Shown here one piece after another: positions 7,716-57,662 of a stretch of 64,000 bases of DNA. Made by a program: the position numbers and the translations under genes. This DNA is from Neobacillus sp. SuZ13 (lineage in GTDB: Bacteria > Bacillota > Bacilli > Bacillales > Cytobacillaceae). Location: contig NZ_CP126107.1 in assembly GCF_030123365.1 (NCBI RefSeq), positions 5,445,501 through 5,509,500 on the forward strand. The letters run 5' to 3'. Below the pieces are notes generated by a model. That model searched no databases. It saw nothing but the letters and a program-made list of their open reading frames with translations, and had not been told where the DNA came from. How positions within the stretch are numbered: position 1 is the stretch's first letter; the number at the start of each line of letters is the position of its first letter.

Positions 7716-9260
<1,545 letters not shown>

Positions 9261-48298: not shown

Positions 48299-49267
48299 TT
48301 AGTATTCTAATTTCCACATGTATCTTCTTTTTGTGAGTGGATGATTTCTAACTATAGCTAATTGTTCTGCATACACACGTAATACACCTGAAATTAAGAT
48401 TGGGTTAAAGTAATCCACCACTTCTTTTTCAATGGCAGAACCTAAGCCAAAGTCTTTTGCATCTACGACAGTCGTTTTAGCATCGAATCTATTTAGGAAC
48501 TCAAGTGCGCGGGAATCCATCTCCCTTGTTCTTCCATCATTCATCAATAAAATGAATGGCACATCTTTGTCTACGATTTCGAATGGACCATGGAAGAATT
48601 CTCCATCGTGGAACGTTCCAGAGTTAATCCATTGCATTTCCATTAGTAAACAGATGGAGAAAGAGTAGGCTACTTCATGAGTTGCACCGCTGCTCATTAC
48701 ATAAATGACTTGATCATCTTTATAAGCATCTGCGAATGCGACTGCTTGTGGAACCACAGAGGATACAGCCTTTTCGATTAAGTCATAGATTTTAGAGAAT
48801 CCATCTAACATTTTGTTGTAGTGCTCATATCCCTCAAATTGATTTAGGATTTCAACCGCTAGGCCTAATACCTTGGTCATTTTCTCCATTTTTGCAGCAT
48901 AATTAGCTGCCCAGCCGTGGTAAACTACATAATCCGCATCTTTTGTAATGGCAGAACCATTTTCATACGTAACAGAAATTACATGTGCACCTAATTCCTT
49001 TGCTTTTGTAGTAGCAGCAACAGTTTCTGGAGTAGATCCTCCTAATGAACAAGTAATAACAATGCTGGTGTCATCCACGGATACTGGAGTAGCATAATTG
49101 AACTCATTTGCAGTGAATAAACTTACACGAAGTTGTTTCGCATTAGCATCAAGGAAATATTTTGCAGGATATAATTCTGCTTTTGAAGCACCACATCCTA
49201 CAAAAAAAACACTCTTTATTTCCGGTTGTTTTTCCTTAATTTCTGAGATGATATAATTTAATTCCAT
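48299..49267 (-). CDS. SIS-domain fructosamine-6-phosphate deglycase paralogue
   Basis: A 322-residue sugar isomerase (SIS) protein with two phosphosugar-binding halves. FVGCGASKAELYPAKYFLD and VITCSLGGSTPETV are the first SIS site, VIYVMSSGATHEVA the second, and TFHDGEFFHGPFEI a catalytic-side loop typical of FrlB/AgaS-like deglycases. It is closely similar to the protein at 50413-51381 and diverges from the GntR gene between them, with operator palindromes upstream of its start. It would cleave a 6-phosphofructosyl amino acid to glucose 6-phosphate and amine. Separate transcription suggests a second, differently tuned copy. Confidence 0.85.
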   Translation of the reverse strand: MELNYIISEIKEKQPEIKSVFFVGCGASKAELYPAKYFLDANAKQLRVSLFTANEFNYATPVSVDDTSIVITCSLGGSTPETVAATTKAKELGAHVISVTYENGSAITKDADYVVYHGWAANYAAKMEKMTKVLGLAVEILNQFEGYEHYNKMLDGFSKIYDLIEKAVSSVVPQAVAFADAYKDDQVIYVMSSGATHEVAYSFSICLLMEMQWINSGTFHDGEFFHGPFEIVDKDVPFILLMNDGRTREMDSRALEFLNRFDAKTTVVDAKDFGLGSAIEKEVVDYFNPILISGVLRVYAEQLAIVRNHPLTKRRYMWKLEY

Positions 49268-49285
49268 TTTCCATCCTCCATTAAG

Positions 49286-49326
49286 TTATATTATATAATA
49301 TGACGTTATATAACATTATATTAATG
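49286..49326 (-). promoter_or_regulatory. GntR operator, SIS gene side
   Basis: GTTATATAAC (49305-49314), followed by ATTATATTAATG, is identical over 22 bases to the site before the ABC binding-protein gene. A further TATTATATAATA palindrome lies next to it. Confidence 0.8.
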
Positions 49327-49442
49327 CCCAAGTTTATAAATGTCAACAATAATTCTGAAAATTAGAATATAAAATTGGAAGGATATATTTTAAGAATATT
49401 AAGAAATAACAAATCAAATTTATACCATTAAAAACATTTTTG

Positions 49443-49460
49443 TTATATAATATTATATAA
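49443..49460 (+). promoter_or_regulatory. GntR operator, regulator gene side
   Basis: TTATATAATATTATATAA is a perfect 18-bp palindrome 29 bases before the gntR start codon, consistent with autoregulation. Confidence 0.75.
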
Positions 49461-49489
49461 TGACTTATCGTTTGAAAGGAACATATATA

Positions 49490-50218
49490 ATGAAATTAAA
49501 CAATTCCATTTCAACACCTTTATATGACCAATTAAAACAAATAATTAAGGATTCTATTTTGCAGGAAGTTTATAAACAAGGTGAGAGGCTTCCTAACGAA
49601 ACAGAATTATGTGAGATCTATGGTGTCAGCCGAATAACAGTTAGAAGAGCTATTCAGGATTTGACGGAAGAAGGACTTTTAGAGCGCAGACAAGGAAAAG
49701 GTACATTTGTCATGCGGACTAAACTGGCAAGGGAACTAGTTTCAGTTGATGGCTTTACTGACTTTAACAAGCAACTAGGAAAAAATCCTTCAAAGCGGAT
49801 TCTTGTTTGCGAGGAAATTAAAGCTAATCCTATCATTGCGGAATCCCTGAAAATTCCCATTGACACACCTGTATTAAGACTCGTCCGATTAATGTTTATT
49901 AATGACTACCCTTTTACCATTGATGAAACACATTACTCCTTAGAACGCTTCCCTGATTTAGCCAGTCACTTTCTTGAGAATGTTTCTACCTATGATGTCC
50001 TGAAAAAAATATATAACGTTAATCTGAATTCCAGTTCTACCCATAAAATCATTACAGTTGTCCCGGCTACAGGTCATGAAGCAGCATCTTTAGATTGTGA
50101 AATTGGTGATACATTATTTAATATCGATAAAATCGTTTACGATGAAAACAAAGTCCCTATTCATACTTCTAACTTTAAAACACGGACGGAATTAATTGCT
50201 TTAACCATCACAACTTAA
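49490..50218 (+). CDS. frlR: GntR/HutC family transcriptional regulator (FrlR-like)
   Basis: A 242-residue repressor. The N-terminal winged helix (about 1-75: TPLYDQLKQIIKDSI, LPNETELCEIYGVSRITVRR, GLLERRQGKGTFV) is the GntR DNA-binding domain, and the C-terminal half is a UTRA/HutC ligand domain. ATG 49490 is chosen because AAAGGA lies 10 bases upstream; the earlier ATG 49460 lies in the operator. It sits between two deglycase genes and is flanked by TTATATAA-type palindromes that recur before the ABC operon. A phosphorylated Amadori compound is the likely ligand. A terminator follows. Confidence 0.88.
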   Translation: MKLNNSISTPLYDQLKQIIKDSILQEVYKQGERLPNETELCEIYGVSRITVRRAIQDLTEEGLLERRQGKGTFVMRTKLARELVSVDGFTDFNKQLGKNPSKRILVCEEIKANPIIAESLKIPIDTPVLRLVRLMFINDYPFTIDETHYSLERFPDLASHFLENVSTYDVLKKIYNVNLNSSSTHKIITVVPATGHEAASLDCEIGDTLFNIDKIVYDENKVPIHTSNFKTRTELIALTITT

Positions 50219-50230
50219 ATGGATCTGTAT

Positions 50231-50262
50231 ACTTCTCTGTCAATGGCAGAGAAGTTTTTTTA
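50231..50262 (+). terminator. Terminator of gntR
   Basis: ACTTCTCTG / CAGAGAAGT stem with seven T. Confidence 0.93.
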
Positions 50263-50280
50263 TTACCAAGGCTTTAAGCT

Positions 50281-50306
50281 TGCCAGTTGATTTCCGCTCC
50301 AGCCAA
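50281..50306. repeat. Remnant of a GC-rich repeat end
   Basis: GCCAGTTGATTTCCGCTCCAG matches in two blocks the left end of the element at 61254-61618, but the rest of the element is missing here. Confidence 0.55.
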
Positions 50307-50363
50307 CATGTGGCGCAAAATCAAAAATCACAGCAATTACCAAAAAAAAATATAAACATGAAC

Positions 50364-50397
50364 AAAACAGGTATCGTTTAATACGATACCTGTTTTG
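50364..50397 (-). terminator. Terminator of the fructosamine operon
   Basis: AACAGGTATCG / CGATACCTGTT stem, T-rich on the minus side, between gntR and the operon's last gene. Confidence 0.88.
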
Positions 50398-50412
50398 CTC
50401 ATGTTATTTAGA

Positions 50413-51381
50413 TTAATATTCAAGTTTCCACATATATCTTCTTTTGGTTAGTGGATGGTTACGGGCAATTGCCAATTGTTCAGCATAAACACGGATTACT
50501 CCTGTGATCAGCATTGGGTTGAAGTAATCGACTACTTCTTTAGCAATGACAGAGCCTAAGCCGAAGTCCTTCGCATCGACCACTGTTGTTTTTGCATCAA
50601 AGCGATTGAGGAACTCAAGTGCTCTTGAATCCATTGCTCTTGTGCGGCCATCATTCATCAATAATAGGAATGGTACGCCTTTGTCCACGATTTCAAATGG
50701 TCCGTGGAAGAATTCACCGTCATGGAAGCTTCCGGAGTTGATCCATTGCATTTCCATCAGTAGGCAGATAGAGAAGGCATAAGCTACTTCATGAGTTGCT
50801 CCGCTAGACATTGCATAAATGACTGGCTCATCTTTATAAGAATCAGCAAATGCCTTTGCTTGTGGAAGAACAGTCGCTACAGATGATTCAATTAGATTGT
50901 AAATTTTTGCGAAGCCATCCTGCATTTTGTTGTAGTGCTCATAGCCTTCATATTCGTTAAGAATTTCAACCGCAAGGCCTAACACCATTGTCATTTTTTC
51001 CATTTTTGCTGCATAGTTTGCTTCCCAGCCATGGTAAACAACATAGTCTGCATCTTTCGTGAGGGCAGAATCTTCAACATGTGTAACTGCGATTACGTGT
51101 GCACCTAATTCTTTTGCTTTCGCAGTCGCTGTTACGGTCTCTGGAGTAGTTCCGCCTAAAGAACATGTAATGACGATACTAGTTTCATCAACAGAAACTG
51201 GCGTTGCATAGTTAAATTCATTTGCTGTATATAGGCTTGTACGAAGATGTCTCGCATTTCCTTCAAAGAAATACTTTGCAGGATATAAATCGGACTTTGA
51301 TGCACCGCATCCTACAAAAAATACACTCTTGATATTTGGCTGTTTTTCCTTAATTTCTCTTATGATGTAATTTAATGACAC
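50413..51381 (-). CDS. frlB: Fructosamine-6-phosphate deglycase (SIS domain)
   Basis: A 322-residue SIS protein, last gene of the ABC-kinase-deglycase operon. It has the same motifs as its paralogue at 48299-49267 (FVGCGASKSDLYPAKYFFE, SLGGTTPETV, AMSSGATHEVA, FHDGEFFHGPFEI). The start is GTG 51381, six bases after GGAGGAG; a TTG further up overlaps that site, and the chosen start gives the same length as the paralogue. It should convert the 6-phosphofructosyl amino acid formed by the PfkB kinase into glucose 6-phosphate and free amino acid. Confidence 0.9.
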   Translation of the reverse strand: MSLNYIIREIKEKQPNIKSVFFVGCGASKSDLYPAKYFFEGNARHLRTSLYTANEFNYATPVSVDETSIVITCSLGGTTPETVTATAKAKELGAHVIAVTHVEDSALTKDADYVVYHGWEANYAAKMEKMTMVLGLAVEILNEYEGYEHYNKMQDGFAKIYNLIESSVATVLPQAKAFADSYKDEPVIYAMSSGATHEVAYAFSICLLMEMQWINSGSFHDGEFFHGPFEIVDKGVPFLLLMNDGRTRAMDSRALEFLNRFDAKTTVVDAKDFGLGSVIAKEVVDYFNPMLITGVIRVYAEQLAIARNHPLTKRRYMWKLEY

Positions 51382-51434
51382 TTGTTTCTCCTCCAATAAT
51401 CTTTTTTATACAAAAACTTTACATTAATGGTTCA

Positions 51435-52280
51435 TCACACATATAACTTTCCGTATCCAAAGGAACCGTCAACCAGGCATTGCTGGGATGAGAAATCAGC
51501 TGCTTTCTCCAGGCTCTTTATAATGATTTGATCTTGGTTTAAAATTCCTTCTTTGATTTGGCTTAAGTAGTTCATCATAAAGCAAGTGATGAAAGAATCG
51601 CCTGCTCCCATTGTGTCAATTGCTTTAACATGCTTTGGTTCCTGCACGTAGAATTTGGCACCATCAAATAATAGAGCTCCTTTTTCACCCATGGTGCATA
51701 GCACCAATTTGCAGCCCATCTTTGTCACCTTTAACATAAGATTAAGCATCGCATCTGTCTTTAGATGACTGCAGGAAAAATAGGCATAATCCACAAATGG
51801 AACAATTTCATTTACTTGATTTTCGGTAAAATCGGAAGAAAAGTCGAAGCCGATGGGAACACCTAACTCTTTAATCCTTGGTAATTCCGGTTCTGTAAAT
51901 CCATAAAGGCCCGTGTGCACTAAATCAAATTCTTTGATATAGTTTAAATCTTCAGCTGTTAAATTTAATCCATGTTCTCTTAATACACCACAGCGGTTGC
52001 TTCCTAAAAACACCCGATCACCGTCTTTTAAGGTAACTCTTGCACAGCCGTTCTCTCCTTCATAAACCTTACAATGACTGATATCCAATTCAATTTGCCG
52101 GATACTTTCCTGTACATGTGCTGCTTCTTGGTCCGTACCAAATGCTCCTAGAAAAGCCGCATCCACTCCAAGCCTTTTGGCATAAACGGCAAAATTCAAT
52201 GCATTTCCTCCTGGATACATGGTACGAATGTGTTCATATTTATCTACGACATTGTCACCTAATCCAATTACTTTCATCAT
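51435..52280 (-). CDS. frlD: Fructosamine kinase, PfkB family (FrlD-like)
   Basis: A 281-residue sugar kinase of the PfkB/ribokinase family. The N-terminal GLGDNVVDKYEHIRTMYPGG and GNALNFAVYAKRLG mark the FrlD-type substrate pocket. DTMGAGDSFITCFMMNYL is the ATP/catalytic signature, with the catalytic Asp in GAGD. It would phosphorylate the imported fructosyl amino acid at C6. GAGG lies ahead of the ATG. It begins 10 bases after the ATPase gene and precedes the deglycase, an order matching the pathway. Confidence 0.9.
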   Translation of the reverse strand: MMKVIGLGDNVVDKYEHIRTMYPGGNALNFAVYAKRLGVDAAFLGAFGTDQEAAHVQESIRQIELDISHCKVYEGENGCARVTLKDGDRVFLGSNRCGVLREHGLNLTAEDLNYIKEFDLVHTGLYGFTEPELPRIKELGVPIGFDFSSDFTENQVNEIVPFVDYAYFSCSHLKTDAMLNLMLKVTKMGCKLVLCTMGEKGALLFDGAKFYVQEPKHVKAIDTMGAGDSFITCFMMNYLSQIKEGILNQDQIIIKSLEKAADFSSQQCLVDGSFGYGKLYV

Positions 52281-52290
52281 TAAACCTCAC

Positions 52291-53013
52291 TTATAACACC
52301 TTTGATAAGAAATCAATCGTCCTGGGGTGCTTTGGATTTTCGAAAAATTCCTTCGGGGTATTTTCTTCCAAAATCTTTCCTTGATCAATGAACAGAATAC
52401 GATCGCCCACTTCTTTTGCAAATCCCATTTCATGTGTGACTACGACCATGGTCATTCCTTCTTTGGCAAGGTCTTTCATAACAGCCAAAACCTCTCCAAC
52501 CATTTCAGGGTCCAAAGCAGATGTAGGTTCATCAAATAACATAACCTCAGGCTTCATCGCAAGCGCTCTCGCGATAGCAATCCGCTGCTGCTGGCCCCCG
52601 GACAATGAAGATGGATAAGCATCAATCTTTTCCAGCAGGCCTACCTTTTTTAATAGTTCTACCGCTAAGTCCTTTGCTTCAGCAGGCTTCATTTTCTTTA
52701 CTTTTATTGGAGCATGGCAAATATTTTGACGAACCGTTTTGTGAGGAAATAGGTTAAATTGCTGGAACACCATCCCCATTTTTTCTCTCACTTTGTCAAT
52801 GTTGATATTTTTAGCTGTAATGTCTTTCTCATCTATTAAAATACTTCCACCTGTTGGAGTTTCCAAAAGATTAAGACATCTTAGGAAAGTACTTTTACCT
52901 GAGCCTGACGGACCAATTACAACGACTACTTCACCCTTATTAATCGTGACATCGATCCCTCTTAAAACTTCATTTTTTCCAAACTTCTTGTGCAAATCCT
53001 TAACGATGATCAC
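52291..53013 (-). CDS. Polar amino-acid ABC transporter ATPase (GlnQ-like)
   Basis: A 240-residue ABC ATPase: Walker [11 protein letters not shown]-loop FQQFNLFPH, signature LSGGQQQR, Walker [14 protein letters not shown] and H-loop [12 protein letters not shown]. The sequence is that of polar amino-acid uptake ATPases. It uses a GTG start that overlaps the end of the permease gene. It is part of the fructosamine operon, so it probably energises uptake of an amino acid carrying a sugar adduct. Confidence 0.95.
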
Positions 53014-53662
53014 TAGTCTTCAACCTCCTTTCCACAACTCCTAGTAATCTCGACAAAGTAAATGTCAGTACTAGATAGCCAAAAGAGGCAACGAGGATTG
53101 GTTCCAAACCTAATGCCGTATTTCCTCTAACGATGGTTGTTTTATACATAAGCTCTGCCACACCGATAACAGATACTATAGAAGAATCCTTGATACTTCC
53201 AATAAACTGATTGCCCAGGGCAGGTAAAATATTTTTAAATGCCTGAGGCATGATAATATCGAACATTGCGAGCCTTTGATTCATCCCCAAACTTCTTGCG
53301 GCCTCCATTTGACCCTTGCTAACTGCTTCAATACCAGAGCGAATCGTTTCAGAAATATAAGCAGCTGCATTAAGCGATAAGGCGATCGCACCTACCGCCA
53401 AATCAGGAATATCACTGCCGCTAAATAAAGCAGGTACTCCAATATAGATAATATAAATTTGGGCAAGAAGCGGTGTGCCTCTAATAAATTCTACATAGAT
53501 GTCCCCAATAAATTTCACGGTTTTAAATCTGGAGCGTCTTAAAAGGGTTAAGGCAACACCCAGGATACTTCCTAAAACTACCGCAATCAGCGCAAGGATG
53601 ATCGTTATGTAGATCCCTGTTAAAAAGAATTGATAATACGTTCCAAGGAATGAAAAATTCAA
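53000..53662 (-). CDS. Polar amino-acid ABC transporter permease
   Basis: A permease of about 220 residues with five or so membrane helices and the HisMQ-type cytoplasmic loop ([20 protein letters not shown], carrying the EAA motif). TTG 53662 is taken as start because GGGGGGAG lies four bases upstream; the open frame further up contains the intercistronic hairpin and is not coding. The 3' end overlaps the ATPase gene by 14 bases. A single permease gene implies a homodimer. Confidence 0.9.
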
Positions 53663-53701
53663 TTGACTCCCCCCTTTGAATCTGGCTTCACGAGTGCCGA
53701 A

Positions 53702-53751
53702 CCGATAGGGTACATGTGTTAGCAAAAACGATTATCCTTGTATCCTATCGG
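53702..53751 (-). promoter_or_regulatory. Intercistronic hairpin after the binding-protein gene
   Basis: CCGATAGGGTACA / TGTATCCTATCGG is a 13-bp stem with one mismatch, between the binding-protein and permease genes. It has no T-run, so it probably shields the upstream mRNA and lowers downstream expression rather than terminating. Confidence 0.7.
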
Positions 53752-53761
53752 GGCAGCCATA

Positions 53762-54580
53762 TTAATTTTGTTTTACTTTCGTCATTGCGTCTGTTAACCA
53801 CTTTTCATAATCAGGTTTTGTTCTTTCAATCGTCTTATTAATTGTATCCATAACTTCCTTATCTGTACCATTAGGCATGGCAATCGCAGCTCCAGCTGTA
53901 TCGTCATCAAATAGAAGTTCAGTTAGCGCTAATTTAGGGTTACTCTTAACAAGAAGTGTAGCAGTTGGGCGATCTACTAGGACTGCGTCGACTTTGTTAG
54001 CTGCTAAATCCATCGCTAATTCAGTTGATTTTCCTAATAATTTTAACTCCGCATTTGGAAATTCCTTTTCAACGATTTGCTGTTGTACAGAAGATTTAAT
54101 CGCAGCAATTTTTGCTTTCTTCAAATCGTCATTTGATGTAAACTTGTCCAATTCTTTTTTACGGACTACCATTACGTGTCTATCCTTATAGTACACATTA
54201 GTGAAGTCTGCATTTTTTTCTCTTTCCTCGGTTGGACTGATAGCCGAAACAATCATGTCAATTTTTCCTGCTTGAAGAGCGACTAATAAACCATCGAAAT
54301 CCATATCTTTAATTTCATATTTAACACCTAAATCTTTTGTTACTTCGTCGATTAATTTAATATCAGAACCAATAATTTTATCCTCTCCACCATCAACCGC
54401 ATGGAACTCATAAGGAGGTGTAGCAGCCATCAAACCAACAACAATTTTCCCTTTTTCCTGTAGTCCTTCAAGTCCTTCCTTTGCCTTTGCTTTTTCAGTG
54501 GTTCCACAGCCTGCCAATGAAATAGTAAGAACTCCAGCTAATGCCATCCCTGTTATTGATTTCAAGATTCCTTTTTTCAT
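53762..54580 (-). CDS. Polar amino-acid ABC substrate-binding lipoprotein
   Basis: A 272-residue solute-binding protein. MKKGILKSITGMALAGVL and the lipobox LAGC (Cys 25) show a lipid-anchored protein. The rest is a periplasmic-binding-protein type II (SBP_bac_3) fold: KIVVGLMAATPPYEF, LVALQAGKIDMIVSA, TEEREKNADFTNVYY, and VDAVLVDRPTATLLV. First gene of the operon, behind a GntR operator. In Bacillus subtilis the frl importer is of a different (sugar-type) class, so this operon pairs frl enzymes with an amino-acid-type importer. Confidence 0.93.
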   Translation of the reverse strand: MKKGILKSITGMALAGVLTISLAGCGTTEKAKAKEGLEGLQEKGKIVVGLMAATPPYEFHAVDGGEDKIIGSDIKLIDEVTKDLGVKYEIKDMDFDGLLVALQAGKIDMIVSAISPTEEREKNADFTNVYYKDRHVMVVRKKELDKFTSNDDLKKAKIAAIKSSVQQQIVEKEFPNAELKLLGKSTELAMDLAANKVDAVLVDRPTATLLVKSNPKLALTELLFDDDTAGAAIAMPNGTDKEVMDTINKTIERTKPDYEKWLTDAMTKVKQN

Positions 54581-54658
54581 ATTCCTCTTCCTCCTTAGTA
54601 TTCCACTTCAATTTTTTTACTATTATAAAATATTAATATATTCGCAAAAACTGATAAC

Positions 54659-54680
54659 GTTATATAACATTATATTAATG
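54659..54680 (-). promoter_or_regulatory. GntR operator, ABC operon side
   Basis: GTTATATAAC plus ATTATATTAATG, identical to 49305-49326, about 80 bases before the binding-protein start codon. Confidence 0.8.
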
Positions 54681-54732
54681 ACTCCATCGAATAAAGTCAA
54701 CTAAAATTCTGAAAATTATCAATTAAAAGTTA

Positions 54733-54878: not shown

Positions 54879-54932
54879 AAAAAAGGTTCAGTCCCCCGCT
54901 ACAATAACTAGCAGGGGACTGAACCTTTTTTT
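54879..54932 (-). terminator. Terminator of the M20-hydrolase operon
   Basis: AAAAAGGTTCAGTCCCC / GGGGACTGAACCTTTTT: a long stem with both A- and T-runs, probably active in both directions; it overlaps the last stop codon. Confidence 0.93.
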
Positions 54933-56160
54933 AGAGGATATCTACTTTTTCACAGCTTAATTTTAATACACTATTAAGCAAAACATTAGCACCTTTAGCG
55001 CAGTCTTCATATGAAGTTAATTCATCTTCACGATGACTGTAGCCATTTACACTTGGTACAAAAATCATTGCCGTTGGTATATAAGAGGCGATAAATTGGG
55101 CATCATGGCCAGCGCCGCTATACATTCGATTTTCTTGATAGCCTAACTCTTTGCAAGTAGATTCAACAGCATTGATTACTTCTTCATTAAAGTCTACTGT
55201 ATCTCGATCCCATAGAAGGGTTGATTTGATTGAACATTCATTTAAATTTTTTGGTAAATGCTCCACGATTCTACTTACTTCGGCAATAACCTCAGGAACC
55301 TGATGTCTTGCCTCTAAAGTAAAGGTTACCTCTGAAGGAATAACGGTATGGATATTTGGATAGGCATTGATCCTTCCGATTGTGTAAACAAGATCCGAAT
55401 CCAGTCTTTGTAGTTGTTTTTGCATATCTGCAATCATATTTGCAGCAGTGAACATTGGATCTTTGCGCATGCTAATCGGTGTGGTACCTGCATGATTGGA
55501 TTCTCCATAGACAGTGATTTCATAGCACACCATTCCTAGTACACCTACTACCACACCTATATCTAAGTTTTTCCTTTCAAGTACAGGTCCTTGTTCAATA
55601 TGCAATTCGATATAAGCGCTAGCTTCTTTTAACCGATTCTTCTCAGAGCCTTCGAAACCGCTTTCATTTAATGCTTGAGCAAATGTAATGCCATTTTTAT
55701 CTGTTGAAGCGAGCATTTTTGTTTTATCAAACTTTCCGGATAACACACCGGAAGCCATAAGAGATGGCTCAAACCGAGCTCCTTCTTCATTTGTAAAATT
55801 GACAATTGTAATTGGATAATCTAACTCGATATTTTCATCTTTTATCGTATAGACCGTCTCTAAAGCAGTTAGGACACCTAGCACACCATCGAAACGCCCG
55901 CCTTTGACAACAGAGTCTAAATGAGAACCAATTACAATAGGCGGCAAGTTTCGTTTTCCTGGTAAGGTCGCATACATGGTCCCCATATCATCGTAAGTTA
56001 CGGTCATTCCTATTTCTTCACATAGTGTTTGGAATTTCTTACGTGCTGCGATATCTTCAGCAGATAATGATAGCCTTGTTACTCCGTTGTTATCTGTTTT
56101 GCCAAACAAACTAAATAAATCGATTAATTTTTCAAGTCGGTTCGCATTACACTTTATCAC
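54931..56160 (-). CDS. M20 family N-carbamoyl-amino-acid/allantoate-type amidohydrolase
   Basis: A 409-residue zinc hydrolase of the M20 peptidase family, of the allantoate amidohydrolase/N-carbamoyl-L-amino-acid hydrolase/beta-ureidopropionase group. IGSHLDSVVKGGRFDGVLGV holds the first metal ligands, NFTNEEGARFEPSLMASGVL the catalytic and bridging Glu residues, ELHIEQGPVLE the next ligand, and GAGHDAQFIA the C-terminal histidine. It would release ammonia and CO2 from a ureido group. It is last of a four-gene operon with an SSF symporter. Context (transaminase, MmsA-like dehydrogenase) favours N-carbamoyl-beta-alanine or a relative, but allantoate cannot be excluded. Confidence 0.88.
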   Translation of the reverse strand: MIKCNANRLEKLIDLFSLFGKTDNNGVTRLSLSAEDIAARKKFQTLCEEIGMTVTYDDMGTMYATLPGKRNLPPIVIGSHLDSVVKGGRFDGVLGVLTALETVYTIKDENIELDYPITIVNFTNEEGARFEPSLMASGVLSGKFDKTKMLASTDKNGITFAQALNESGFEGSEKNRLKEASAYIELHIEQGPVLERKNLDIGVVVGVLGMVCYEITVYGESNHAGTTPISMRKDPMFTAANMIADMQKQLQRLDSDLVYTIGRINAYPNIHTVIPSEVTFTLEARHQVPEVIAEVSRIVEHLPKNLNECSIKSTLLWDRDTVDFNEEVINAVESTCKELGYQENRMYSGAGHDAQFIASYIPTAMIFVPSVNGYSHREDELTSYEDCAKGANVLLNSVLKLSCEKVDIL

Positions 56161-56177
56161 AAGGATTCCTCCTTTAA

Positions 56178-57662
56178 TTATTTTGCCATTTCTTCTACTA
56201 CCTTGGAACTTTCTCTTGCTACAAATGTGTTAGTTAGTAAACTTACACTTACTCCTATGAAAATATTAATAGCAATGGCTACAAAACCAATGTTGATATC
56301 ATTAATGACACTTGGAATATTTGGGAAAATATTGACTAATTTAAATGCAGTGACTGAATTAAATAATACGATGGAAACACCTGTTATAATGCCGGCAATC
56401 GCTCCGTACGCATTCATGAACTTTGTATTAAAGAATCCGAAAATCAGCGCAGGCACTAATTGGGTAATTAAACCATATGACATGATGTTTAGAATAGCCA
56501 AAGCTTCTCCGCCGAAAATACTGAAAATATAAGCAGTTAAAATAATGAATAAAACAAATAATTTAGATACGGTTAGTTGCTGACGATCGCTTGAATTTGG
56601 CTTAATTAACTTATAAAAACCTGTCATTAACCCGACTGCACCAGACATGACCATCACGGATACCGGTACTAACGCCGTAAGTACGCCAGCCCCGCCAACA
56701 ATTCCCACAAACCAAGGATCGAATGTTTGCATCGTGAGACGTAACAGTGAAAGGTCACCATCAGCACCTTCTAAACCAGGTACTTGAATAATCGCTGAAA
56801 ATCCAATAAAGAAAGCAAATAAAATTAAAATCGTATACAACGGCAGCGTGATCGCGTTTTTCTTTAATGCACGCTCACTTCTAGCAGATAAGACTACACT
56901 AAACGACTGTGGTAATAGGTAAAAACCAAATGCATTTAATACGATGGTAGAAATAAACCATGACTTACTGAAGCCTTCAGATGCGAAGGTTAATACTTCC
57001 GGTTTAGCGGTTTGAAGGGCTTCGAATAAAGGCTTGATTCCGCCAAAATAGTGATAAGGAATATAGATACCTAAGAATACAATCACAAATAAAATCATGA
57101 TATCTTTTAATACGGCATTCCAAGCAGATCCATGGATACCAGAGACCGTAACATAAATCGTCACAATCGCTGCACCGATTGTAGAAGCCATTAATGGTGA
57201 AATAGTTCCATAAGAAGCTTCTGATACGATGATTCCTAATCCTTTTAATTGGATGACGATATATGGGATGAGCGCGATTAAACCGATGAAAGCGACGACC
57301 AAACCAAGTGCTTTACTGTTATAAGTTTTCATAAAATATTGAGGCTGTGAAATAACCCCATGCTTGTTCGCAAAACGCCAAATTTTAGGAACCATCCAAT
57401 AAGAAAGCACATAAGCCAAGCAAATATAGGCTGGAACATAGTAAGCTGCTGCACCTTTTGAATAAGCCCAGCCGCTGCCCCCTAAAAAGGTAAAGGTTGT
57501 GTAAACTTCACCTGCAATGAGCAGGAATACGAAGAGTGTGCCGAATCCTTTATTCCCAACCGCGAATTCATTGACGTTCATTTCTTTTCCACGGGTTGCT
57601 CGAATTCCTAAGTATAAAGCGACGATAGCTACAAGAAAGATAATGACCAAAGCACTGTTCAT
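56178..57662 (-). CDS. Sodium:solute symporter (SSF family)
   Basis: A 494-residue membrane protein with 13 or so helices of the SSF (LeuT-fold) family, which couples solute uptake to sodium. The second helix LLIAGEVYTTFTFLGGSGWAY-type stretch (with GGSGWAYSKG) and the loop MVPKIWRFANKHGVISQPQY fit the family. The substrate is unknown; operon context suggests a ureide, carbamoyl amino acid or nucleobase derivative. The start codon overlaps the DUF3311 stop (TAATG), and the M20 hydrolase gene follows 17 bases later. Confidence 0.9.
   Translation of the reverse strand: MNSALVIIFLVAIVALYLGIRATRGKEMNVNEFAVGNKGFGTLFVFLLIAGEVYTTFTFLGGSGWAYSKGAAAYYVPAYICLAYVLSYWMVPKIWRFANKHGVISQPQYFMKTYNSKALGLVVAFIGLIALIPYIVIQLKGLGIIVSEASYGTISPLMASTIGAAIVTIYVTVSGIHGSAWNAVLKDIMILFVIVFLGIYIPYHYFGGIKPLFEALQTAKPEVLTFASEGFSKSWFISTIVLNAFGFYLLPQSFSVVLSARSERALKKNAITLPLYTILILFAFFIGFSAIIQVPGLEGADGDLSLLRLTMQTFDPWFVGIVGGAGVLTALVPVSVMVMSGAVGLMTGFYKLIKPNSSDRQQLTVSKLFVLFIILTAYIFSIFGGEALAILNIMSYGLITQLVPALIFGFFNTKFMNAYGAIAGIITGVSIVLFNSVTAFKLVNIFPNIPSVINDINIGFVAIAINIFIGVSVSLLTNTFVARESSKVVEEMAK

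Follow-up and report, generated by a model that had tools for sequence, protein, structure and literature searches.

Heated food, plants and soil commonly contain fructosamines (Amadori products), and uptake decides which organisms can use them. Here, we compare the described systems for such compounds with a locus of Neobacillus sp. SuZ13, located at positions 48299 to 54580 of a stretch of 64,000 nucleotides (NZ_CP126107.1, 5,445,501 to 5,509,500; hereafter the window), in which predicted enzymes of the frl type stand beside an ATP-binding cassette (ABC) importer of the polar amino acid transport (PAAT) type. E. coli frlABCDR comprises the kinase FrlD, the deglycase FrlB and the regulator FrlR as in the window, a frlC-like gene is found in the window's relatives, and FrlA is a secondary amino-acid permease. 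The fra system of Salmonella, which acts on fructose-asparagine, has the kinase/deglycase logic in common with the window and employs a DcuC-like importer and a single deglycase. OccJ and NocT of Agrobacterium belong to opine systems without a kinase/deglycase pathway; they share the fold of the window's substrate-binding protein (SBP) with high structural scores, but are only 18% identical and have other ligands. Uptake in E. coli proceeds via FrlA (PMC12735817), whereas the window uses an ABC importer, and the window proteins stay below the E. coli-type equivalog cut-offs. The B. subtilis system, frlBONMD-frlP with FrlR, shares an FrlB-type SIS protein, an FrlD-type kinase, an FrlR-type repressor and ABC import with the window (PMC12632257). 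Its importer, however, is the sugar-type FrlONM with FrlP/MsmX instead of a PAAT system, and it has one deglycase where the window locus has two (PMC12632257). A sugar-type version of the B. subtilis frl operon is present in the window's genome as well (L055).

The gfrABCDEF systems of Salmonella and Enterococcus faecium resemble the window in having two SIS deglycases, which serve there for glycated lysines, but differ in that import occurs via a phosphotransferase system (PTS) with phosphorylation and that no kinase is present (PMC12675984, PMC12735817). The two gfr deglycases are described as homologues of two different enzymes (PMC12735817). In Intestinimonas AF211, cluster AF_00949-00955 consists of a kinase, a deglycase and a four-gene importer for fructoselysine, which the accessible text calls simply an "ABC transporter" without giving its class (PMC4697335). 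We found no paper that pairs an frl or fructosamine deglycase with an amino-acid ABC importer, though the gene order may have been mentioned earlier. Most likely, the locus takes up Amadori compounds, early products of the Maillard reaction in which a sugar is joined to an amino acid, through its PAAT importer and cleaves them into the two parts; the importer would be a further uptake route and is an unusual partner for familiar enzymes. In Bacillaceae and Clostridium, genes of this importer would otherwise be labelled as glutamine or arginine transporters, and recognising the route would help to annotate the use of Amadori compounds there.

All seven genes were found within 48299-54580 of the window, and the genome carrying them comprises 6,085,354 bases in a single contig. 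Five genes form an operon on the minus strand in the order SBP, permease, ATPase, kinase and frlB1 (54580 down to 50413). The SBP (53762..54580) is a lipoprotein with the lipobox LAGC, as read from the sequence, and matches SBP_bac_3 with a score of 96.9 (cut-off 26.4). The permease (53000..53725) scores above the cut-off of HEQRo_perm_3TM and shares 94% identity with its Gottfriedia counterpart; its true start is probably near 53662, giving 220 amino acids as in Gottfriedia acidiceleris (L072), and being a single gene it presumably forms a homodimer. GlnQ is the top match of the ATPase (52291..53013). The PfkB kinase (51435..52280), a predicted fructosamine 6-kinase, has the NCBIfam fructoselysine 6-kinase as its top model, with 223 bits at a cut-off of 247. 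The final gene, frlB1 (50413..51396), is predicted to encode an SIS-type fructosamine-6-phosphate deglycase. On the plus strand, a GntR/UTRA gene (49460..50218) lies convergent with the operon and divergent from the second predicted deglycase gene, frlB2 (48299..49267, minus strand). The GntR/UTRA protein barely passes NF008491, which we take to be the FrlR model (269.4, cut-off 269), and shares 70% identity with its counterpart in L055; the true start is probably 49490 (MKLNNS), which matches L072 and L055. NCBIfam FrlB is the top model for both SIS proteins, with 94 and 105 bits at a curated cut-off of 430. A hairpin search yielded terminator-like hairpins behind the operon (50357..50403, minus strand, 20 pairs) and behind the regulator gene (50231..50255, plus strand).

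By best matches, the locus has the FrlB-kind SIS protein, the FrlD-type PfkB kinase and the FrlR-type GntR/UTRA regulator of an frl system. Its importer combines SBP_bac_3, a HEQRo_perm_3TM permease and a GlnQ/HisP-like ATPase, as expected of a PAAT system, and not the SBP_bac_1 protein and two permeases of the sugar-type FrlONM. Mannose-family PTS genes were absent among the 10 proteins scanned between 47519 and 57662, where ABC genes occur instead. Judged from its families, the locus is one that would act like frl, yet falls outside the B. subtilis-type frl operon by its importer. The original prediction of frl-type enzymes with an amino-acid-type instead of a sugar-type importer is supported by the FrlB, FrlD, SBP_bac_3 and GlnQ assignments, as is the second, very similar deglycase beyond the regulator.

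We consider it probable, with good confidence, that the locus constitutes an FrlR-controlled regulon for fructosamine catabolism, in which a PAAT importer replaces the importers known for such systems. The features computed in its favour are the families, the operon order, the co-occurrence of importer and enzymes, the relation between kinase and importer class, the repeated and conserved operator-like sites, and the age of the deglycase copies. For co-occurrence, at most 5 or 6 candidates per genome were scored. The FrlB clade (E <= 1e-88) occurs in 6 out of 397 genomes of the order, and the SBP clade (E <= 1e-50) in the identical six; these genomes are not independent, as the family code f15 applies to three of them and the window's genome is itself among the six. 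In all six, the genes of both clades share one neighbourhood (window, L041, L065, L067, L068, L069). A chance neighbourhood of importer and frl enzymes was considered and is ruled out by this co-occurrence.

A single scan of named genomes with FrlB collected 68 loci, two of which are distant (L135, 39% identical, and L136, 36%), and the importer class was assigned by BLAST to reference genes anywhere in each locus stretch. Eleven loci carry the PAAT importer of the window, 3 a distant PAAT importer (Blautia, Hungatella), 24 a sugar ABC importer, 21 a mannose-type PTS, whose IIC and IID reference proteins were confirmed by Pfam, and one both sugar ABC importer and PTS; no importer was recognised at the remaining 8, of which L077 and L080 are contig ends. 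No other reference importer class was found in the 11 PAAT loci, and further transporter-like genes occur there outside the operon, e.g., in L072. In Enterococcus, Listeria and Clostridium, members of the window's FrlB clade neighbour mannose-type PTS genes. Clostridium magnum possesses both a PAAT-type (L081) and a PTS-type locus (L109) of the same deglycase clade.

The presence of a kinase follows the importer class. A frlD gene (at least 80 bits) accompanies 10 of the 11 PAAT importers, where the sole locus without it (L099) sits on a 6.4-kb contig, one of the 3 distant PAAT importers, with weaker kinase matches at the other two, and 21 of the 24 sugar ABC importers, but none of the 21 PTS. 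With the mixed and the 8 unclassified loci left out and without correction for kinship, Fisher's test gives p = 6e-11 for all ABC against PTS loci and 2e-7 for PAAT against PTS loci. This is expected if the PTS phosphorylates its substrate on import, ABC uptake depends on a separate kinase, and the SIS proteins cleave fructosamine 6-phosphates. One deglycase clade hence stands beside three unrelated importer kinds, and the kinase is kept or dropped largely by import chemistry. The same pattern, with the kinase mostly present beside ABC importers and absent beside PTS, speaks against the possibility that the SIS proteins have other amino-sugar phosphates as substrates, like glucosamine 6-phosphate deaminases or transaminases, and that the locus is not dedicated to fructosamines at all. 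The SIS fold is indeed common to GlmS and NagB-II, whose models also match frlB2 (85 and 47 bits). But FrlB is top for the SIS proteins and FrlD for the neighbouring kinase, relatives have a frlC-like epimerase gene, and the FrlR-type regulator is at its cut-off, so that we regard an amino-sugar pathway as highly improbable.

Distant relatives extend the range of importers. More distant deglycase/kinase loci are associated with DcuC (L042), dipeptide-type SBP_bac_5 (L166) or PotD-like (L175) importers. In three genomes of the window's genus (L042-L044), a more distant frlB-frlD-GntR set adjoins an amidohydrolase-like gene and a permease; that of L042, the only one scanned, belongs to the DcuC family. 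Two loci from the order of Faecalibacterium (L168, L175) consist of an ATPase, two permease-like genes, an SBP, an SIS gene, a frlC-like and a frlD-like gene, a set of seven that resembles the Intestinimonas cluster in both the count and the types of its genes; in L175, the SBP is PotD-like and the frlC-like protein exceeds its NCBIfam cut-off. By analogy, the fructoselysine importer of Intestinimonas is perhaps not a PAAT system. A window-type PAAT set was not recognised in the 15 neighbourhoods of 15 frlD matches among 394 genomes of the Intestinimonas order. In Blautia and Hungatella (L104, L107, L110), the different PAAT importer that accompanies this FrlB clade has an SBP of about 27% identity with asparagine at the amine-contact position, and perhaps represents an independent recruitment.

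Control of the locus is suggested by repeated operator-like sites. The 24-base candidate ACGTTATATAACATTATATTAATG (49303..49326, plus strand) overlaps the -10 element of a promoter-like match in front of frlB2 (TTGACA-17-TAATAT, 49346..49318, minus strand), and an identical copy at 54657..54680 (plus strand) overlaps that of the operon promoter (TTGACT-17-TAATAT, 54700..54672, minus strand). Hence, the same exact 24-mer precedes frlB2 and the SBP gene, where shuffled sequences lead one to expect none. A third candidate, GTTATATAATATTATATAA (49442..49460, plus strand), lies upstream of the regulator gene. Allowing at most one mismatch, the 19-mer GTTATATAAYATTATATWA is found at only three places in the whole 6.1-Mb genome, before frlB2, frlR and the SBP gene, with one of the three also counted on the opposite strand. 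The composite TTGAC[AT]-(16-18)-operator was present in 8 of the 10 relatives scanned; in Robertmurraya korlensis it precedes a HAD-like gene and the frlB2-like gene of a PTS locus. We infer from these sites that an FrlR-like regulator binds and represses at the candidate operator, and that frlB2 is probably co-regulated with the operon. The second deglycase gene, which had been said to stand alone, would accordingly not do so in regulatory terms, as the operator is common to the promoters of frlB2, operon and regulator. The shared operator also provides a direct handle on the regulon. The frlB2-like gene of Robertmurraya korlensis, part of a mannose-type PTS locus (L073, 3510-9984), carries an operator and promoter of the window's type, although the stretch examined showed no FrlR-like gene.

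The two deglycases are 84% identical over 322 residues. At the nucleotide level, identity is 79%, dS is about 1.5 (near saturation) and dN/dS 0.06; for frlB2, dN/dS ranges from 0.03 to 0.07 over its 7 pairings. In a tree of 25 rows, frlB1 clusters with Neobacillus PS3-12 and the frlB1 copies of Gottfriedia and Bacillus sp. AFS088145 (support 96/98), and frlB2 with Robertmurraya and the frlB2 copies of the latter two (90/83). Forcing the window's two copies to be sisters costs 49 log-likelihood units (p = 7.8e-5 in the approximately unbiased (AU) test), and the same constraint on the Gottfriedia pair costs 126 (AU p = 2e-40). Gottfriedia acidiceleris has the same layout of operon, regulator and second deglycase copy, while in AFS088145 the two copies are separated by contig ends. 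The proposed recent duplication is therefore rejected on the AU test, the high dS and the shared layout in Gottfriedia. frlB2 rather appears, from these comparisons, to be a paralogue of long standing that has been retained with transcription of its own. It may be one lineage or a mixture; a frlB2 clade of window, Gottfriedia and AFS088145 alone has a support of 65/24.

Why two copies are kept can be read in two ways. FraB abstracts report that in Salmonella loss of FraB leads to accumulation of a toxic 6-phosphate. With an FrlR-type promoter of its own, a deglycase would let cleavage keep pace with phosphorylation, so that frlB2 would act as a buffer. The main rival to this buffer reading is a split in specificity, e.g., between fructosyl- and glucosyl-amine 6-phosphates or between different amino acids. 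It agrees with two old copies that are separately maintained under purifying selection and with seven positions that differ consistently between four rows of the frlB1 group and four of the frlB2 group, including S/T223 between the catalytic-type residues E215 and H231. Moreover, gfr systems employ two deglycases (PMC12675984), and several related loci contain a second SIS gene. Yet both window copies, at 84% identity, have the same E/H pair, and the second frlB-like genes of the other loci, Gottfriedia apart, share only some 36-48% identity with the window's and so look like different cases. We hold split specificity to be rather doubtful. All 75 SIS rows (73 of them different) have E215 and H231 at a distance of 16 residues; the pair presumably corresponds to E488 and H504 of GlmS, which have the same spacing. 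The accessible parts of two FraB papers (PMC12051030, PMC9609667) contain no mention of catalytic residues.

The ligand question centres on the SBP. All 12 aligned frl-linked SBP sequences have T54, F95, S115, R120 and D203. In proteins of the LAO/GlnBP type, an arginine and a serine or threonine hold the carboxylate, an aspartate holds the amine, and two aromatic residues clamp the side chain. Position 54 is phenylalanine or tyrosine in all five solved relatives shown and in 9 of the 10 SBP paralogues of the same genome. In terms of this alignment, the window's SBP is one that keeps the predicted contacts to an alpha-amino acid and has lost one of two aromatic clamps. The combination fits an amino acid whose side chain bears a bulky sugar, e.g., N-epsilon-fructosyllysine, which the pocket would accommodate at least as well as fructosyl-glutamine or opine-like ligands. 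That N-epsilon-fructosyllysine is the preferred substrate is a guess, to which we give somewhat less than an even chance. The L068 locus carries two frl-linked SBP copies (5515, 10183), the second of which has asparagine in place of threonine at the clamp position.

In a structural search, the predicted SBP model (mean predicted local distance difference test score, pLDDT, 84.6) resembles SBPs of many ligands, among them amino-acid and related binders. OccJ (Z 23.4, 2.1 A) and NocT (Z 21.9, 2.2 A) have the lowest root-mean-square deviation among the 50 rows shown, and both proteins bind opines. Their rank is consistent with the same regulon serving alpha-glycated amino acids (fructosyl-valine, -arginine, -glutamine) or opine-like compounds, with an importer that takes the secondary alpha amine, and B. 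subtilis FrlB and FrlD do prefer alpha-glycated amino acids (PMC12632257). Fold and conformation, however, give no ligand, as 4i62, titled an amino-acid ABC binding protein, scores equally high (Z 24.0). Two sugar-type fructosamine loci (L055, L009) already exist in the genome, which would make a third of the same specificity redundant, and the PTS-linked copies of relatives are similar to gfr systems, whose substrates are lysine adducts (PMC12675984). We rate alpha-glycated or opine-like substrates as less likely than not.

For the favoured FrlR-controlled fructosamine regulon, we infer the ligand, the enzyme activities, the repression by FrlR and the buffer role of frlB2 as follows. The lipoprotein would capture a glycated amino acid and grip its amino-acid end via R120, S115 and D203, while the sugar moiety would fill the room freed where T54 replaces the usual aromatic clamp. 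A phosphorylated intermediate would release FrlR from one operator type, which spans the -10 elements at the promoters of frlB2 and the operon and is present before frlR too. Independently transcribed, frlB2 would keep the deglycase in step with a possibly toxic 6-phosphate. A bolder version, in which the importer class reveals the glycated nitrogen, so that PAAT marks a new ABC route for N-epsilon-fructosyllysine and sugar-type importers mark alpha-glycated compounds, with frlB2 as FrlR-driven buffer, is tentative and, taken as a whole, on the unlikely side.

Several observations weigh against a fructosamine regulon as outlined. Both SIS proteins are far below the FrlB equivalog cut-off and the kinase is below that of FrlD, so the exact substrate may differ from that in E. 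coli. The closest solved relatives of frlB1, an "SIS domain protein" (9otj) and its kin, 3fkj and 3eua, have no functional name, save 3eua with its "putative fructose-aminoacid-6-phosphate deglycase" (260 bits, phmmer). The window operon lacks frlC, a gene present at 9 of the 11 named PAAT loci; it is missing from L074 (Neobacillus sp. Marseille-Q6967) as well. The operator was not found in the Clostridium/Sporolactobacillus-type PAAT loci scanned (L081, L082, L041, L069, L099), save one match with three mismatches in L041; these loci have GntR genes that share just 33-40% identity with that of the window. Promoter-like matches are no commoner in the region than in shuffles, so that the weight rests on the operator and its conservation. 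At the clamp, the remaining SBP paralogue of the genome also has threonine, and one frl-linked copy has asparagine. Finally, the solved SBP relatives shown carry titles of amino-acid binding proteins or ancestral forms thereof. Such titles among the closest solved SBPs would suit an importer of free amino acids that merely shares the operon with frl enzymes, e.g., by co-importing the amine product. This we find quite unlikely in view of the SBP and FrlB clades sharing one set of 6 among 397 genomes, of other FrlB-clade loci that mostly neighbour sugar ABC or PTS genes, of the absence of any other reference importer class from the 11 PAAT loci, and of T54, which marks the frl-linked SBP clade.

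The gene order of PAAT loci varies. SBP-permease-ATPase-frlD-(frlC)-frlB is the order in the Gottfriedia, Neobacillus and Niallia loci, while a frlC-like gene lies between SBP and permease in Mesobacillus. In Clostridium magnum and C. thailandense, frlC and frlB are separated by a GntR gene, and in Sporolactobacillus-type loci frlB directly follows the ATPase. The frlC-like protein of L072, the only one scanned, has fructoselysine 3-epimerase as its best match (110 bits, cut-off of 305 unreached). In AFS088145 (L070, about 8100-8990), the frlC-like gene is split in two frames and is probably broken or misread; together with the window lacking frlC, this hints that frlC is being lost from these loci. 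GlmS of the window's genome is 93% identical to that of Marseille-Q6967, 84% to PS3-12, and 72% to both Gottfriedia acidiceleris and AFS088145. For FrlD, the corresponding values are 83%, 70%, 83% and 84%, and the SBP is 63% identical in PS3-12 and 83% in Gottfriedia. These identities discord with those of GlmS and, with one housekeeping protein as yardstick, suggest a transfer of the locus between Gottfriedia and the lineage of the window.

The window's genome holds three fructosamine-type loci, which makes the partition of substrates testable: the window locus, L055 at 1.02 Mb and L009 at 5.25 Mb. L055 comprises a frlB-like gene, a sugar-type SBP_bac_1 importer, a frlD-like gene and the FrlR-like regulator mentioned above. 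An operator-like site with two mismatches precedes this regulator in the B. subtilis-type frl locus (7487-13556 of L055), and cross-talk between the two FrlR regulators is possible. L009 (5472-8563, near 5.246 Mb) is a second multi-deglycase locus of the fructosamine type, with three consecutive SIS genes, an MFS-like gene, a frlC-like gene, a sugar-type importer and a frlD-like kinase. Next upstream of the window's operon, at 54931-57662, an amidohydrolase of the hydantoinase/carbamoylase family and a sodium-solute symporter are encoded; they are parted from the operon by a strong terminator-like hairpin (54882-54928) and are probably a separate unit.

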